Shown piece after piece: positions 47,899-54,103 of a stretch of 64,000 bases of DNA. The notes under the pieces were generated by a model. The model had not been told where the DNA came from. It made no database searches and was given only the letters and a program-made list of their open reading frames with translations. The DNA is from Mycobacterium sp. (lineage in GTDB: Bacteria; Actinomycetota; Actinomycetes; Mycobacteriales; Mycobacteriaceae): assembly GCA_003987775.1 (NCBI GenBank), contig RXJD01000034.1, forward strand, positions 124,001-188,000, given 5' to 3'. Numbering within the stretch: the stretch's first letter is position 1; each line of letters begins with the position of its first letter. A program made the translations under genes and the position numbers.

Positions 47899-48140
47899 TG
47901 GCAGTGGGAATTTCCCCTGGCGAACTGCGCGAGCTCACCGACGAGGAGCTGCAGGAGCGGGTCCGCGAATCGAAGGAAGAGCTGTTCAACCTGCGCTTCC
48001 AGATGGCGACCGGCCAGCTGAGCAACAACCGCCGGCTCCGCACGGTGCGTCAGGAGATCGCGCGCGTCTACACGGTGCTGCGGGAACGAGAACTGGGTCT
48101 GGCTAGCGGCCCCGATGGGTCTGACGGTAAGGAATCGTGA
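47898..48140 (+). CDS. rpmC: 50S ribosomal protein L29
   Basis: An 80-residue L29, a helical hairpin near the tunnel exit ([33 protein letters not shown]). The start at ATG 47898 overlaps the rplP stop; the frame is open upstream inside rplP but that is not L29. Its TGA overlaps the rpsQ start. Confidence 0.96.
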
Positions 48141-48475
48141 TGGCAGAGGCGAAGAAAGCGGCTCCCAAAGCGGACGCCCCCGCAAAAGACAAGGGCCCCA
48201 AGCACACTCCGGCCAACCCCAAGCCGCGCGGTCGTCGCAAGACCCGCATCGGCTACGTGGTGAGCGACAAGATGCAGAAGACCATCGTTGTCGAGCTCGA
48301 GGACCGTGTGCGGCACCCGTTGTACGGCAAGATCATTCGGACGACGAAGAAGGTCAAGGCCCACGACGAGAACAGCATCGCCGGCATCGGCGACCGCGTC
48401 TCGCTGATGGAGACACGGCCGCTCTCGGCGACCAAGCGCTGGCGCCTCGTCGAGATCCTCGAGAAGGCCAAGTAG
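48140..48475 (+). CDS. rpsQ: 30S ribosomal protein S17
   Basis: A 111-residue S17 (16S rRNA 5'-domain assembly). The S17 core is [20 protein letters not shown] onward; a ~35-residue Lys/Pro/Ala-rich N-terminal extension is typical of mycobacteria. ATG 48140 is preferred over GTG 48137 because GTAAGGA is then 6 nt away. Last gene of the first ribosomal block, followed by a terminator. Confidence 0.96.
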
Positions 48476-48497
48476 CTCTCGCGAGCAGACGCACAAG

Positions 48498-48528
48498 CCC
48501 CCGTTTCAGCGGCGAAACGGGGGTTTTT
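48498..48528 (+). terminator. intrinsic terminator after rpsQ
   Basis: CCCCCGTTTC (48498-48507) pairs with GAAACGGGGG (48514-48523) around a 6-nt loop, followed by TTTTT. The preceding GCGAGCAGACGCACA (48481-48495) resembles the sequence before the rpoC and tuf terminators. It ends the rpsJ-rpsQ transcript. Confidence 0.88.
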
Positions 48529-48636
48529 GCTTCTCTCACACAGCATTTCGCGGGCGGGGTGTAGAACCCGTCCACCGATCGGGGGACAGCAGAAACCACC
48601 CCACCCACGGCTCATCAGGGGACATCGCCGGCGGAG

Positions 48637-48668
48637 TTGAATCGTTAGTTTCGAATTGCACGATTCAA
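48637..48668. promoter_or_regulatory. 32-bp perfectly spaced dyad upstream of the small peptide gene
   Basis: TTGAATCGT (48637-48645) and ACGATTCAA (48660-48668) are 9-bp inverted arms placed exactly symmetrically around a central TTCGAA palindrome (48650-48655). It ends 22 bp before the ATG of the 26-codon ORF. It looks like an operator for a dimeric or tetrameric regulator, but an RNA role is possible. The likely regulator is not in the immediate vicinity. Confidence 0.6.
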
Positions 48669-48690
48669 CCAGCGAATTGAAGGAGAAGTT

Positions 48691-48771
48691 ATGTCCCACG
48701 AAATGTTGTTCGGCGAGCACGAGATCGTCTACACGGCGCCGATTTACAGCGCGACCGACGTCTGCGAGTAG
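48691..48771 (+). CDS. 26-residue peptide, candidate precursor of a P450-modified RiPP
   Basis: ATG 48691 is preceded by GAAGGAGAAG (AAGGAG, 5 nt spacing), one of the best ribosome binding sites in the window. The peptide is acidic: N-terminus MSHEMLFGEHE, C-terminus IYSATDVCE, with Y14, Y19 and a penultimate C25 as possible modification sites. It has no hydrophobic signal sequence. A large stem-loop and a P450 gene follow on the same strand. Size, acidity and neighbour resemble precursor genes such as mftA, but there is no clear similarity to MftA or to a known family. The function is inferred only. Confidence 0.6.
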   Translation: MSHEMLFGEHEIVYTAPIYSATDVCE

Positions 48772-48788
48772 AGACGCCGAGTTGGTTT

Positions 48789-48834
48789 GCTACCGACCCC
48801 GGCAGTGCCTGCGCACGTCGGGGTCATCGGTAGC
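48789..48834 (+). promoter_or_regulatory. stem-loop between peptide gene and P450 gene
   Basis: GCTACCGACCCCG (48789-48801) pairs with the two segments CGGGG (48819-48823) and TCGGTAGC (48827-48834), leaving a 3-nt bulge and a 17-nt loop. It has no T run, so it would act as an attenuator or an mRNA-stabilising barrier giving more peptide than P450. Such elements are common between RiPP precursor and maturase genes. Confidence 0.55.
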
Positions 48835-48860
48835 TTCGGCCCGAGCCCGAACGGATCTGC

Positions 48861-50099
48861 ATGACAATCTGCTCAACGCCCAGCCTGCTCGGTGTGGACC
48901 TCACCGACCCGGATAACTTCGCCGACGGCTTCCCGTATGACATCTTCGAGTCCCATCGCCGCGAGGCGCCGGTGTTCTGGCATGGGCCCACCGAGCACAC
49001 GCCCGATGACGAAGGCTTCTGGTCGGTCGCAACGTATGCCGAAACCATTGCCGTGCTGCGTGATTCGACGACGTACTCGTCAGAGACCGGCGGTAAGCGG
49101 CCGTTCGGCGGCACCTTGCTGCAAGACTTCCCGGTGTCCGGCCGGCTGATCAACATGATGGACGACCCGCGGCACGGCGCTATCCGGCGGTTGGTCAGCT
49201 CCGGTCTGGGACCCCGGGTGATCGGCCGGATCGAGGACGACCTGCGACGCCGGGCGCGCCGGTTGTTCGATCAGATCAAACCTGGCGAGGTATTCGACTT
49301 CGCCGTCGACGTCGCGGCCGAACTGCCCACGCAGATGATCTGCATTCTGCTCGGGGTGCCCGAGGTCGACCGGCACTGGCTGTTCGAAGAGATCGAGGCC
49401 GGCCTGAACTTCCGCGGCTCCCGCACGGCGTTCGTCTCATGGATCTACGGCACCGACGCACAGTCCCGGCGCGACGAATACGGACGTGAGCTGATCGCCT
49501 GCAAGCGGGCCGAGCCGGCCGACGACATGTTGTCGATCGTGGCCAACGCCACCGTCGACGGCAGGCCGTTCATGTCGGACGAAGAGGTCTATCTGTTCTT
49601 TCATCAGCTGTTCAGCGCGGGCAGTGACACCACCCGCAGCGTCACCTCCGTCAGCCTGCTCGCCCTGGCCGAACAGCCCGATCAATGGCGCCGGCTTCGC
49701 CATGACATCAGCATGTTGCCCACGGCGATCGAGGAATTCGTGCGATGGACGACTCCGTCACCGTCCAAGCGGCGCACCGCCACTCGTGATGTCACCCTCG
49801 CCGGGCAGCGCATCGAGGCGGGCCAGAAGGTACTGGTCTGGGATGCCTCGGCCAACCGCGACCCCAGGGTGTTCGAACGGGCGGACGAATTCGACATCAC
49901 CCGAAAGCCCAATCCGCATCTGGGGTTCGGGCAGGGCGTGCACTATTGCCTGGGCGCCACCCTGGCCCGCCTGGAGCTGCGGGTGTTCTTCGAGGAACTG
50001 TTGCCGCGGTTCGAGGGCATCGAGGTGGTAGCGCCGCCGCAGTGGGTCGGCAGCAACCGGCGCAACGGGCTGAGCAGCCTGATGGTCCGGATGCACTGA
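48861..50099 (+). CDS. cytochrome P450
   Basis: A complete 412-residue class I bacterial P450. The oxygen-activation helix has AGSDTT (residues 253-258), then the ExxR motif in EEFVR, and the haem loop [10 protein letters not shown] with C363 as thiolate ligand. No redox partner is encoded beside it. The start ATG 48861 has only a weak Shine-Dalgarno. It lies between the 26-codon peptide ORF and atsA, and interrupts the conserved rpsQ-atsA order. It may oxidise a small lipid or sterol, as many mycobacterial P450s do, or act on the small peptide. Confidence 0.93.
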
Positions 50100-50204: not shown

Positions 50205-52565
50205 ATGACGGGGCAGTCGAGTCAATTCCAGGGCAAGATCGAGCTGGACATTCGTGATTCGGAACCGGACTGGGGGCCCTACGCGGCGCCGACCGCGCCC
50301 GAGAATGCGCCCAACATCCTGTACCTGGTATGGGACGACACCGGGATCGCGACCTGGGACTGCTTCGGCGGACTGGTGGAGATGCCGGCAATGACGCGGA
50401 TCGCCGAGCGCGGCGTGCGCCTGTCGCAGTTCCACACGACCGCCCTGTGCTCCCCGACCCGCGCGTCGCTGCTCACCGGCCGCAACGCCACCACCGTCGG
50501 CATGGCCACCATCGAAGAGTTCACCGACGGCTTCCCCAACTGCAACGGGCGTATCCCGGCCGATACCGCATTGCTCTCCGAGGTGCTTGCCGAGCACGGC
50601 TACAACACCTACTGCGTGGGTAAGTGGCACTTGACGCCGCTGGAGGAGTCCAGCATGGCCGCCACCAAACGGCACTGGCCGACTTCGCGCGGCTTCGAGC
50701 GCTTCTACGGTTTCATGGGCGGCGAGACCGACCAGTGGTACCCCGACCTGATGTACGACAACCATCCGGTGAACCCGCCTGCCACCCCGGAGGAGGGCTA
50801 TCACCTGTCGAAAGACCTCGCGGACAAGACGATTCAGTTCATCCGCGACGCCAAGGTGATCGCGCCCGACAAACCGTGGTTCAGCTACGTCTGCCCCGGC
50901 GCCGGTCACGCGCCGCACCACGTCTTCACCGAATGGGCCGACAAATACGACGGTGTGTTCGACATGGGCTACGAGAAGTACCGCGAGATCGCACTGGAAA
51001 AGCAGAAGGCGATGGGCATCGTGCCGCCCGACACCGAGTTGTCGCCGATCAACCCCTACCTCGACGTCAAGGGGCCCAACGGCGAGCAGTGGCCGCTGCA
51101 GGACACGGTGCGGCCCTGGGATTCCCTGAACGACGAAGAGAAAAAGTTGTTCAGCCGGATGGCCGAGGTGTTCGCCGGCTTCCTCAGCTACACCGATGCG
51201 CAGATCGGGCGGATCCTGGACTACCTGGAAGAGTCCGGCCAGCTCGACAACACCATCATCGTGGTGATTTCCGACAACGGGGCCAGCGGCGAAGGCGGCC
51301 CGAACGGATCGGTCAACGAAGGCAAGTTCTTCAACGGCTACATCGACAGCGTCGAGGAGAGCATGAAGCTCTTCGATCAGCTCGGCGGACCGCAGACCTA
51401 CAACCACTACCCGATCGGGTGGGCGATGGCCTTCAACACGCCCTACAAGCTGTTCAAGCGCTACGCCTCGCACGAGGGTGGGATCGCGGACACCGCAATC
51501 ATCTCCTGGCCCAACGGCATCGCCGCGCACGGCGAGGTCCGGGACAACTACGTCAACGTCAGCGACATCACGCCGACCGTCTACGACCTGCTGGGCATGA
51601 CGCCGCCGGATACCGTCAAAGGCATTCCGCAGAAGCCGCTGGACGGAGTGAGTTTCAAGGCGGCCCTTGATGATTCGGGCGCGGACACCGGTAAGAAGAC
51701 CCAGTTCTACACGATGCTGGGCACCCGCGGGATCTGGCATGAGGGATGGTTCGCCAACACCGTGCACGCCGCCACCCCGGCCGGCTGGTCGCACTTCGAC
51801 GCCGACCGCTGGGAGCTGTTCCACATCGAAGCCGACCGCAGTCAGTGCCACGACCTGGCCGCCGAGCAGCCGGAGAAGCTCGAGGAACTCAAGGCGCTGT
51901 GGTATTCCGAGGCCGAGAAGTACAACGGACTGCCGCTGTCGGACCTCAACATCATGGAAACCATGATGCGGTCGCGGCCCTACCTGGTGGGCGAGCGGGA
52001 CAGTTACGTCTACTACCCCGATTGCGCTGACGTCAGCATCGGCGCCGCCGCGGAGATCCGTGGCCGCTCCTTCGCCGTGCTGGCCGACGTGACGGTGGAC
52101 ACCACCGGTGCCGAAGGAGTGCTCTACAAACAGGGCGGAGCGCACGGCGGGCACGTGCTGTTCATCCAGGACGGCCGCCTGCAATACGTGTACAACTTCC
52201 TCGGCGAACGCCACCAGCAGATCCAGTCCAACGGCCCGATTCCGTTGGGCCGGCACCTGTTCGGTGTCCGCTACGAGCGCACCGGCACCGTCGCCGACAG
52301 CCATACGCCGATCGGCACCGTGACGCTGTATTTCGACGAACACCCCGTCGGCACGCTTCCCGACGTCGTCACCCATCCCGGAACGTTCGGGCTGGCCGGT
52401 GCCGGCATCACGGTGGGCCGCAACGGCGGCTCGGCGGTGTCCAGCAAGTACAAGGCGCCGTTCGTACTCACCGGGGCCAGCGTCGCCGAGGTGACTATCG
52501 ACCTGTCGGGCCGGCCCTACGAAGACGTGGAAAAGGATCTCGCGCTTGCCTTTTCGCGCGACTGA
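50205..52565 (+). CDS. atsA: type I arylsulfatase AtsA
   Basis: A 786-residue formylglycine-dependent sulfatase (Rv0711-like). The signature C-x-P-x-R is LCSPTRASLLTGR with C82 as the residue converted to formylglycine; metal ligands include DD in LVWDDTG and DNG in VISDNGASGEGG. A C-terminal beta-sandwich domain follows after about residue 600. No signal peptide is seen. ATG 50205 has a modest Shine-Dalgarno. The gene for the activating enzyme follows two genes downstream. Confidence 0.95.
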   Translation: MTGQSSQFQGKIELDIRDSEPDWGPYAAPTAPENAPNILYLVWDDTGIATWDCFGGLVEMPAMTRIAERGVRLSQFHTTALCSPTRASLLTGRNATTVGMATIEEFTDGFPNCNGRIPADTALLSEVLAEHGYNTYCVGKWHLTPLEESSMAATKRHWPTSRGFERFYGFMGGETDQWYPDLMYDNHPVNPPATPEEGYHLSKDLADKTIQFIRDAKVIAPDKPWFSYVCPGAGHAPHHVFTEWADKYDGVFDMGYEKYREIALEKQKAMGIVPPDTELSPINPYLDVKGPNGEQWPLQDTVRPWDSLNDEEKKLFSRMAEVFAGFLSYTDAQIGRILDYLEESGQLDNTIIVVISDNGASGEGGPNGSVNEGKFFNGYIDSVEESMKLFDQLGGPQTYNHYPIGWAMAFNTPYKLFKRYASHEGGIADTAIISWPNGIAAHGEVRDNYVNVSDITPTVYDLLGMTPPDTVKGIPQKPLDGVSFKAALDDSGADTGKKTQFYTMLGTRGIWHEGWFANTVHAATPAGWSHFDADRWELFHIEADRSQCHDLAAEQPEKLEELKALWYSEAEKYNGLPLSDLNIMETMMRSRPYLVGERDSYVYYPDCADVSIGAAAEIRGRSFAVLADVTVDTTGAEGVLYKQGGAHGGHVLFIQDGRLQYVYNFLGERHQQIQSNGPIPLGRHLFGVRYERTGTVADSHTPIGTVTLYFDEHPVGTLPDVVTHPGTFGLAGAGITVGRNGGSAVSSKYKAPFVLTGASVAEVTIDLSGRPYEDVEKDLALAFSRD

Positions 52566-52566
52566 G

Positions 52567-53208
52567 ATGTCGGCGAGACGGCTGGTGGCCCTGGTCTGCC
52601 TGCTGGGTGCGCTGACCGGTTGCCAAACCCGCGGCGGAGGCTCGGGCGCGGCGCCACCGCATCCGGACCCAGCCGAACCGGTGCCCGGCATCGCGCCGAC
52701 CCACCCCGATCGCATACCGCCGGACGCCGCGGCCTGCGTCGTCGCACCGATCGGCGACGGCGAGCCCACCGTGGCTACGGTGTCCGACCCGGAGGCGCCC
52801 CGGATCACGATCAGCGTGCCGCGCGGCTGGACTTCAGCTCCCGGCGCGGGTGATACGGCACTGACGGCGAGCGGTCCCGACACCCTGTCGGCGACGGTGA
52901 CCATCGCGGCCACCGACCTGACGCCCGAAAGCGCGTTCCTGCGCCACACGGCGACGGCCGGCGGTGCCCTGCCGCGGCTGAAGTTCTCGATAACCGGTTC
53001 GCCGTTCTGTGGCTACAGCAGTCAGCAACTCACCGGCACACTGCAAGGGCCCTCCGGCGGAATCGACTTCGCCGATCGGGTCACCCACATCTGGACCAAC
53101 ACCAGGCAATATCTGGTGACCATCCATGTGCAAGCGCACGTGGGCACGCCCGGTTTCAAGGAGGCGAGGTCCAGTTTGACCCAGGACTTCGCGGTCGTCA
53201 TACCCTGA
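52567..53208 (+). CDS. predicted lipoprotein
   Basis: A 213-residue lipoprotein: signal peptide MSARRLVALVCLLGALTGC with lipobox LTGC (Cys19), a Pro/Gly-rich linker, and a soluble domain starting near ITISVPRGWTSA that resembles LpqN/LpqT-type Mog1/PsbP-fold proteins. Family assignment is by eye. It starts 1 bp after atsA and ends 1 bp before the FGE gene, so all three are surely one transcript. In M. tuberculosis atsA is followed directly by Rv0712; I do not recall a lipoprotein there. Confidence 0.8.
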   Translation: MSARRLVALVCLLGALTGCQTRGGGSGAAPPHPDPAEPVPGIAPTHPDRIPPDAAACVVAPIGDGEPTVATVSDPEAPRITISVPRGWTSAPGAGDTALTASGPDTLSATVTIAATDLTPESAFLRHTATAGGALPRLKFSITGSPFCGYSSQQLTGTLQGPSGGIDFADRVTHIWTNTRQYLVTIHVQAHVGTPGFKEARSSLTQDFAVVIP

Positions 53209-53209
53209 G

Positions 53210-54103
53210 GTGGTGCTGACGGAGCTGGTTGAACTTCCGGGCGGGTCCTTCCGGATGGGGTCGACGAGCTTCTATCCCGAGGAAGCGCCGATCCACACCG
53301 TGACCGTGGCCCCGTTCGCGGTGGAGCGTCACCCGGTGACCAATGCGCAATTCGCCGAATTCGTAGACGCCACAGGCTATGTGACGGTGGCGGAGCAGGC
53401 GCTGGACCCGGCGCTGTATCCCGGCGCCAACCCGGCGGACCTGGTTCCGGGGGCGATGGTGTTCCGGCCGACGGCGGGTCCGGTCGATCTGCGCGACTGG
53501 CGGCAGTGGTGGGACTGGGCTCCGGAAGCCTGCTGGCGCCGGCCGTTCGGGGCAGACAGTGATGTACTTGACCGGCCTGAGCATCCCGTCGTGCAGGTGG
53601 CCTATCCCGATGCGGCGGCCTACGCCCGCTGGGCCGGACGGCGGCTGCCGACCGAGGCCGAATGGGAGTACGCGGCCCGCGCCGGAGCGACGGGGACTTA
53701 CGCATGGGGGGACGAAGAGAAGCCCGGTGGCCGGCTGATGGCCAACACCTGGCAGGGCAGGTTCCCGTATCGCAACGACGGTGCGCTGGGCTGGATCGGC
53801 ACCTCGCCGGTGGGGACGTTCCCGGCCAACGGCTTCGGCCTGGTCGACATGATCGGCAACGTCTGGGAGTGGACGACGACCGAGTTCAGTGCACACCACC
53901 GAATCTCGCAGCCGCCCAAGTCCTGTTGCACGCCGACCGGTCCGGCCGATCCGACAGTCAGCCAGACCCTCAAAGGCGGATCGCACCTGTGCGCGCCGGA
54001 GTACTGCCACCGCTACCGGCCCGCCGCGCGATCGCCGCAATCGCAGGACACCGCAACCACCCATATCGGCTTCCGGTGCGTGTTGGATTCAAAGTCGCGC
54101 TGA
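53210..54103 (+). CDS. formylglycine-generating enzyme
   Basis: A 297-residue FGE/SUMF1-type copper oxygenase that converts the AtsA cysteine to formylglycine; close to the structurally studied Rv0712. N-terminal LPGGSFRMGS, the RLPTEAEWEYAARAGA segment, NVWEWTTTEF, and the active-site pair C261 and C266 in GGSHLCAPEYCHRYRP. GTG 53210 overlaps nothing but is only 1 nt from the previous stop. Substrate is very likely AtsA. Confidence 0.94.
   Translation: MVLTELVELPGGSFRMGSTSFYPEEAPIHTVTVAPFAVERHPVTNAQFAEFVDATGYVTVAEQALDPALYPGANPADLVPGAMVFRPTAGPVDLRDWRQWWDWAPEACWRRPFGADSDVLDRPEHPVVQVAYPDAAAYARWAGRRLPTEAEWEYAARAGATGTYAWGDEEKPGGRLMANTWQGRFPYRNDGALGWIGTSPVGTFPANGFGLVDMIGNVWEWTTTEFSAHHRISQPPKSCCTPTGPADPTVSQTLKGGSHLCAPEYCHRYRPAARSPQSQDTATTHIGFRCVLDSKSR

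Follow-up and report, generated by a model that had tools for sequence, protein, structure and literature searches.

What does a 26-codon open reading frame encode, and which enzymes act on its product, when it lies directly upstream of a cytochrome P450 gene between rpsQ and the arylsulfatase gene atsA of a mycobacterium? The earlier note on this DNA proposed a P450-modified ribosomal peptide that would stand apart from the biarylitides as a class of its own. We analysed the locus within its window, the 64,000-nucleotide stretch of contig RXJD01000034.1 (Mycobacterium sp., assembly GCA_003987775.1, positions 124,001 to 188,000), and in related genomes; G, C and L numbers denote genomes, contigs and loci, and G000 carries the window copy. 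The best explanation, to which we give a probability of about 0.65, is a precursor of a thioamide RiPP that would be modified in trans by YcaO-TfuA and oxidised by the local P450. In window coordinates, the locus comprises:

48140 to 48475, plus strand: rpsQ, resident gene at the left edge of the apparent insertion, matched in 95 of 98 genus genomes
48495 to 48526, plus strand: terminator-like stem-loop 3' of rpsQ, 13 pairs and a T tail; the stem is also in G006 and largely in G227
48569 to 48588, no strand assigned: palindromic element CGTCCACCGATCGGGGGACA, candidate operator, 12 of 14 letters of TGTCCCC-N6-GGGGACA, unchanged in G006 and G227
48636 to 48669, no strand assigned: dyad with arms GTTGAATCGT and ACGATTCAAC, 5' of the peptide, largely kept in G227 and degraded in G006
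48680 to 48685, plus strand: Shine-Dalgarno sequence AAGGAG, 5 nt ahead of the peptide ATG
48691 to 48771, plus strand: 26-aa peptide MSHEMLFGEHEIVYTAPIYSATDVCE, putative precursor, conserved across the family towards the N-terminus and variable towards the C-terminus (putative core)
48789 to 48834, plus strand: RNA hairpin in the gap between precursor and P450, with stable hairpins at the corresponding position in G006, G227 and G023
48861 to 50099, plus strand: cytochrome P450, CYP126-type paralogue, 412 aa, complete catalytic motifs
50205 to 52565, plus strand: arylsulfatase gene atsA, resident gene at the right edge of the apparent insertion

The 26-codon frame is present as described, starting with ATG behind its Shine-Dalgarno sequence, and the P450 frame on the same strand is complete; its translation contains the P450 motifs AGSDTT and EFVR and a third of 10 residues. 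The large stem-loop noted between the two genes was recovered (−33 kcal/mol, z = −5.71, 0 of 200 shuffles as good), and its counterparts in G006, G227 and G023 persist with different sequence (z = −2.7 to −4.7); such a hairpin could curb read-through or stabilise the mRNA of the precursor. The dyad ahead of the frame is also there, spanning 34 bp by our reading rather than 32 bp, with 10-bp perfect arms (48636-48645 and 48660-48669) in a 51-nt stretch that folds at −16.1 kcal/mol (z = −2.45, 4 of 200 shuffles as good); we assign it no role because it is poorly kept in G006. No sigma-70-like promoter was found between window positions 48400 and 50300. The terminator-like site after rpsQ, one found against an average of 0.9 in shuffles, suggests that the peptide-P450 cassette follows the ribosomal operon and that no transcript is common to both. 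Pfam matches downstream of the peptide are to the P450, to the sulfatase and, farther on, to a sulfatase-modifying-factor-type protein; the genes for the latter two lie close together 3' of the insertion (50205-54103) and are ordinary resident genes.

We compared rpsQ loci across the genus, checking 30 of them (95 genomes matched), 20 in genomes negative for TfuA and 10 in TfuA-positive ones. A P450 3' of rpsQ was absent from all 20 TfuA-negative loci within the stretch examined, and the rpsQ-atsA gap, measurable in 18 of these, was 75-193 bp in 15 and 701, 902 and 1200 bp in the other three. The P450-peptide module was also missing at rpsQ in four of the 10 TfuA-positive loci (G010, G063, G073 and G090), and peptide and P450 therefore appear to have been inserted at this site in some members of the genus.

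Counterparts of the window peptide at rpsQ-atsA were 85% (G006) and 69% (G119) identical to it, and that of G227 shared 18 of 26 letters with its GTG start scored as a difference. A family profile scored the window peptide at 2.3e-14, the peptide itself being among the sequences that built the profile. These counterparts and the profile score place the peptide beyond chance, and it is near certain to belong to a multi-copy family: the first single-sequence search with it retrieved G006, G119 and others at E = 5e-10 to 1e-3, and among 148 genus genomes relatives occurred in 14 at E ≤ 1, with several copies each. No Pfam or NCBIfam model matched it at E ≤ 1. Codon-position counts over six orthologues gave no clear third-position excess, so that the argument for coding constraint is carried by the family profile and not by dN/dS.

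In a profile built from 29 peptides, M1 and L6 were invariant and E4, F7, E9, E11, Y14 and P17 were present at 90% or more; the family consensus begins M-[SA]-H-E-x-L-F-x-E-x-E and the C-terminus is variable. A short precursor with a conserved N-terminal part and a more variable C-terminal half is what is expected of thioamidated RiPPs, and by this pattern the N-terminal part would be the leader and the C-terminal part the core. Against 297 genus genomes the profile matched 24 at E ≤ 1e-3, with G074 and G108 matched only at E of about 0.03. Against 298 genomes of the order it matched eight at E ≤ 0.1, five of them of the same genus and three of other genera (E = 0.07-0.09), which we take as chance, and no convincing match was obtained outside Mycobacterium. 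A DNA pattern scan of a species-genome collection returned 48 stretches, 43 from Mycobacterium and five from unrelated bacteria.

Iterating the profile yielded at least 157 copies at E < 1e-3, of which at least 144 were distinct, 22-37 aa long and spread over 23 genomes with 1 to at least 23 per genome; copies were collected from the regions around the matches listed, and these counts are lower bounds. Outside the 157 fall one more full-length copy in G112, 15-aa cut copies in G073 and G218, and the G056 copy at rpsQ-atsA, which is extended to 59 aa and exceeds the length limit of the collection. A Shine-Dalgarno-like pentamer (one of 11) precedes the start of 151 of the 157 copies, by a lenient criterion applied without a control set. 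Tandem arrays of 3-4 precursor genes occur in G112 and G215 (L118, L288, L120, L295).

The distribution of this family coincides with that of TfuA. TfuA (PF07812 above cut-off) was found in 24 of 297 genus genomes, exactly the 24 that were peptide-positive at E ≤ 1e-3, while none of the 273 TfuA-negative genomes had a peptide match at that level; G025 and G254, with sub-threshold TfuA matches only, had no peptide match. The 24 genomes are related, such that independent co-occurrence events number fewer than 24; the TfuA-positive G115 and G226 group with TfuA-negative genomes in the P450 tree, which is poorly resolved. YcaO was the nearest downstream gene, on the same strand and within 1.2 kb, for 48 of the 157 copies, and lay within 3 kb of 51, leaving 106 without it in the fetched stretches, where some copies are near contig ends. 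In G000 the adjacent pair on C109 matched YcaO (PF02624, 8.1e-59) and TfuA (PF07812, 7.9e-43). The general YcaO domain model was passed, and McrA-glycine thioamidation models ranked best or second best, below their curated cut-offs; thioamidation is thus a putative reaction, assigned to YcaO and TfuA by domain. The window peptide is accordingly a member of a paralogous family linked to YcaO-TfuA, which speaks against the separate P450-only class of the earlier note.

The window precursor does not lie beside this pair. G000 has at least seven copies, of which two adjoin its one YcaO-TfuA pair on C109, the only TfuA of the genome, together flanked by tyrosyl-tRNA synthetase and FtsJ/S4-domain genes; the window copy is on C37 and the others are elsewhere, and adjacency is seen in the sister copies. 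A precursor gene beside the pair is usual in YcaO-TfuA thioamidated RiPPs and does not define the chemistry. G236 likewise has at least three copies, none beside its one pair, and the copies away from the single pair in these two genomes favour action in trans. Fourteen genomes with a single TfuA match hold at least 52 copies, 16 of them with YcaO within 3 kb, and G112 and G215 have six TfuA matches each. We consider it quite likely, on this genomic evidence, that the window peptide is made as a RiPP precursor and receives a thioamide in trans.

Presence of the pair does not strictly entail working precursors. In G073 the pair is open (YcaO 418 aa, TfuA 488 aa) and the precursor is cut to 15 aa (L253 4526), and in G218 a 15-aa cut copy lies beside one pair (L405 6081). 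These cut precursors were considered as proof of trans action and rejected as such, given that G218 has an intact copy adjoining a second pair and that the cut copy in G073 is the only one at E ≤ 1e-3 among the matches listed.

Many copies share an upstream element. Among words enriched 5' of 95 non-redundant peptide genes relative to 537 control genes, TGTCCCC occurred 23 times against 1.0 expected and GGGGACA 18 times against about 2.3. The arrangement TGTCCCC-N5/6-GGGGACA, at 12 or more of 14 letters, preceded 57 of the 157 copies (a redundant set) and 1 of 860 control genes, and at 13 or more letters 40 copies and no control gene. Sixty-seven sites with at least 11 letters lay 89-182 bp ahead of the start. 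The window copy, with its 12 letters, is not beyond chance when taken alone within the window. With a strict pattern in 12 of the 24 TfuA-positive genomes, 24 of 54 sites preceded a family peptide by no more than 250 bp; the remaining 30 did not, which counts against the best explanation. Nor is the element specific to the peptides: the 20-bp pattern occurs in 203 of 297 genus genomes, and its regulator is therefore probably older than they are. The palindrome is also kept 5' of YcaO-TfuA at L402 (G236), L401 (G056) and L404 (G221), where no family peptide was found at E < 1.

At 29 further palindrome loci (L354-L382, mostly TfuA-negative), nine had a narL-type response regulator and/or an E1 dehydrogenase adjoining, and the palindrome there may mark an undescribed mycobacterial regulon; some of these palindromes stand beside short, secreted-looking proteins of about 75 aa. 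The best solved match of the narL-type regulator is the NarL entry 3eul, the mycobacterial protein. In several relatives that lack the peptides this palindrome also lies near the regulator gene, and that a NarL-type regulator is the controller is only a guess.

The genes next to family copies are varied. Besides YcaO, the nearest downstream gene on the same strand was a class I methyltransferase for 11 of the 157 copies and a P450 of the window-type cluster for nine, followed by an OsmC-like gene (4), an acetyltransferase-like gene (3), a zinc dehydrogenase (3), an LCM-type methyltransferase (2), an amidase (2), a sulfotransferase (1), two clusters without a Pfam match (5 and 4 copies) and further genes. 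Some of these neighbours are probably resident genes. Twelve copies had no called gene within 1.2 kb, and many others face a gene on the opposite strand; that many copies without a nearby YcaO have no obvious tailoring gene adjoining counts against the best explanation. The class I methyltransferase, represented by 17 genes, accompanies peptides at a number of distinct loci and is found at rpsQ-atsA itself in G119, G104, G056 and G029. Among NCBIfam models it matches that of the daptide RiPP methyltransferase, NF041820, best (1.4e-21), at 77 bits against a cut-off of 175.

We assessed the P450 through its relatives. The closest solved one is CYP126A1 (5li6, E = 9.3e-191), and the module P450s fall among CYP126-type sequences in a tree in which CYP126A1 itself is not a row. 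Of 48 CYP126-type loci examined (L009-L038, L153-L170), 12, in 11 genomes, formed a group at 69-100% identity, and all 12 lie at rpsQ-atsA with a family peptide at the locus. They constitute a single clade (support 100/100), long-branched and apart from the other CYP126-type sequences. At the other 36 loci the 1.5-kb flanks examined contained no family peptide (E < 0.1), no rpsQ and no atsA. A peptide that was absent or frameshifted beside orthologous P450s would have spoken against the proposed partnership; it is present at all 11 loci, extended in G056. The short peptide is real and very probably a RiPP precursor. The expectation that it always precedes this P450 clade held for 11 of the 12 P450 genes and failed in G015, where it lies between two tandem P450s. 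That locus (C312; L016, L165, L220) appears to be a tandem duplication at rpsQ-atsA with two CYP126-type P450s, and a degraded rpsQ-like fragment accompanies the one peptide between them.

On this synteny, it is likely that the local P450 modifies the window peptide. It counts against the best explanation that 13 of the 24 genomes positive for TfuA are without the P450 module and have only other CYP126-type P450s, and that for the family as a whole the excess of P450s is modest and weak, with any P450 within 1.5 kb of 22 of 157 copies compared to 225 of 2809 random positions drawn from those regions. A second P450 cluster, not CYP126-type, is divergently oriented beside a peptide ending FNAYNCE or FNADRCE in four genomes (L105, L110, L272, L286). 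As to the product, a cross-link between two tyrosines, or tyrosine and cysteine, is unsupported as a fixed pair. The 11 full-length P450-linked peptides, two of them from G023, all have Y14, position 19 holds Y in six, F in three and C in two, and the penultimate cysteine (Cys25) is not conserved. In a conservation count across the family, covering 127 of the 144 distinct sequences and selected with E4, L6 and F/Y7 fixed, such that those columns are conserved by construction, Y14 was found in 98.

The idea of a P450-linked RiPP was broadly right, then, and what found no support was the separate P450-only class and Tyr/Cys cross-linking. Modification of the window peptide by the P450 alone, biarylitide-like or otherwise, with YcaO-TfuA serving its adjoining sisters only, would fit the P450 directly 3' of the peptide, the constant presence of the peptide at the locus in the genomes seen, the location of YcaO-TfuA on another contig and the P450-made RiPPs with tiny precursors already known from the accessible part of the literature. 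We nevertheless regard it as unlikely: the N-terminal motif is identical to that of YcaO-adjacent copies, many copies have neither a P450 nor YcaO nearby, and among the matches listed for 148 genomes a P450 match of at least 70% occurred in 8 of 14 TfuA-positive and 0 of 134 other genomes.

More doubtful still is the converse, in which the peptide is a YcaO-TfuA precursor and the P450, either a bystander or an enzyme for another substrate, reached rpsQ-atsA on the same fragment. CYP126-type P450s without peptides in the same genomes, the abundance of P450s (78 PF00067 match rows in G000) and their weak general enrichment near the family all agree with it. It does not readily account for a long-branched clade separate from other CYP126-type sequences, or for P450 and peptide staying together in 11 of 11 genomes despite a variable locus: the methyltransferase is present or absent, a second peptide and further genes separate rpsQ from the P450 in G029, and G015 has its duplication. 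A regulatory upstream frame or attenuator leader peptide for the P450, to which a small frame and a strong hairpin just 5' of that gene might point, is very improbable and largely refuted by paralogues of the same amino acid family before quite different genes, by copies without a P450 and by a reversed methyltransferase gene between peptide and P450 in G119 and G104. Equally improbable are unmodified signalling or toxin-like peptides without RiPP chemistry, which would be small, multi-copy and apparently co-regulated as these are, given the exact co-occurrence with TfuA, YcaO as the next gene of so many copies and the sequence of the window peptide, which read directly is acidic and without a long hydrophobic stretch.

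Under the preferred reading of thioamidation in trans followed by local oxidation, residues 1 to about 11 of the window peptide would act as leader and the variable C-terminal part as core. The single YcaO-TfuA pair, on its other contig beside two sister precursors, would recognise the common leader and thioamidate the window peptide in trans, and the adjoining CYP126-type P450 would then oxidise the core by hydroxylation, desaturation or a cross-link. In some relatives the class I methyltransferase at the same locus may add a methyl group. The common palindrome would co-regulate many of the scattered precursors, and the hairpin may keep precursor mRNA in excess over that of the P450.

A wider scheme, which we put forward tentatively and at somewhat less than even odds, is a regulon restricted to the genus and resembling that of the prochlorosins. 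One or a few YcaO-TfuA pairs would serve up to about twenty scattered precursors in trans, many of them with a palindromic operator controlled by a NarL-type response regulator, while individual loci contribute a finishing enzyme each (a CYP126-type P450, a methyltransferase, perhaps others) to give a combinatorial peptide library. If true, mycobacteria would possess a system of thioamide peptides that are processed in trans and regulated together. What links the family with YcaO-TfuA is their exact co-occurrence and, in part, a common cis element. RiPP mining usually searches beside the enzyme, and enzyme-centred searches can miss scattered precursors; here, the fetched stretches show no YcaO within 3 kb of 106 of the 157 copies.

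Mycobacterial YcaO-TfuA precursors are known in outline. In the accessible portions of the surveys, many mycobacteria encode YcaO-TfuA with a large associated network of short putative precursors, 'Network 1', for which a type III PKS and a sulfotransferase are described nearby (Santos-Aberturas et al. 2019, PMC6511847), and M. szulgai and M. angelicum have six TfuA clusters each, P450s being named among the tailoring genes of TfuA clusters (Malit et al. 2021, PMC8120280). Our family resembles these systems in its mycobacterial pairs with short putative precursors adjoining (PMC6511847); it differs in that the surveys sought precursors near tfuA, according to those portions (PMC6511847, PMC8120280), whereas the window copy and most others here lie away from it. 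It may be the same as Network 1, but a motif scan of the fetched stretches found one sulfotransferase and no type III PKS, leaving that link without a motif match. 'P450' has no occurrence in the RiPPER main text (PMC6511847), and the same portions of PMC6511847 and PMC8120280 mention neither scattered copies outside TfuA clusters, nor a CYP126-type P450 at rpsQ, nor a shared operator. Our search of the open PMC literature, with supplements and most subscription papers outside its scope, found no report of scattered P450-linked copies.

The likeness to biarylitides and related P450-RiPPs lies in a tiny precursor gene with a dedicated P450 adjoining. Biarylitide precursors have five residues (PMC13417212, as far as its accessible text goes), unlike the window peptide with its 26 residues, its YcaO-TfuA-linked family and its CYP126-type enzyme, and the P450-linked peptides have no fixed aromatic pair. 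The family-linked methyltransferase is like the daptide type in its best match and unlike it in score. Prochlorosins combine one enzyme system, the LanM-type ProcM, with many precursors that share a common leader and vary in the core. The accessible text of PMC10783134 describes this one-enzyme, many-precursor scheme; our family parallels it in leader and core, and differs from it in the enzyme, in the Nif11-family leader of the prochlorosins and in their cyanobacterial hosts. Finally, CYP126A1, whose physiological substrate is discussed as unknown in the accessible part of PMC5270475, is the closest solved relative of the window P450, which unlike it sits in a long-branched clade of its own and is partnered by a peptide, and for this one branch of CYP126-type P450s peptides are suggested as a substrate class.
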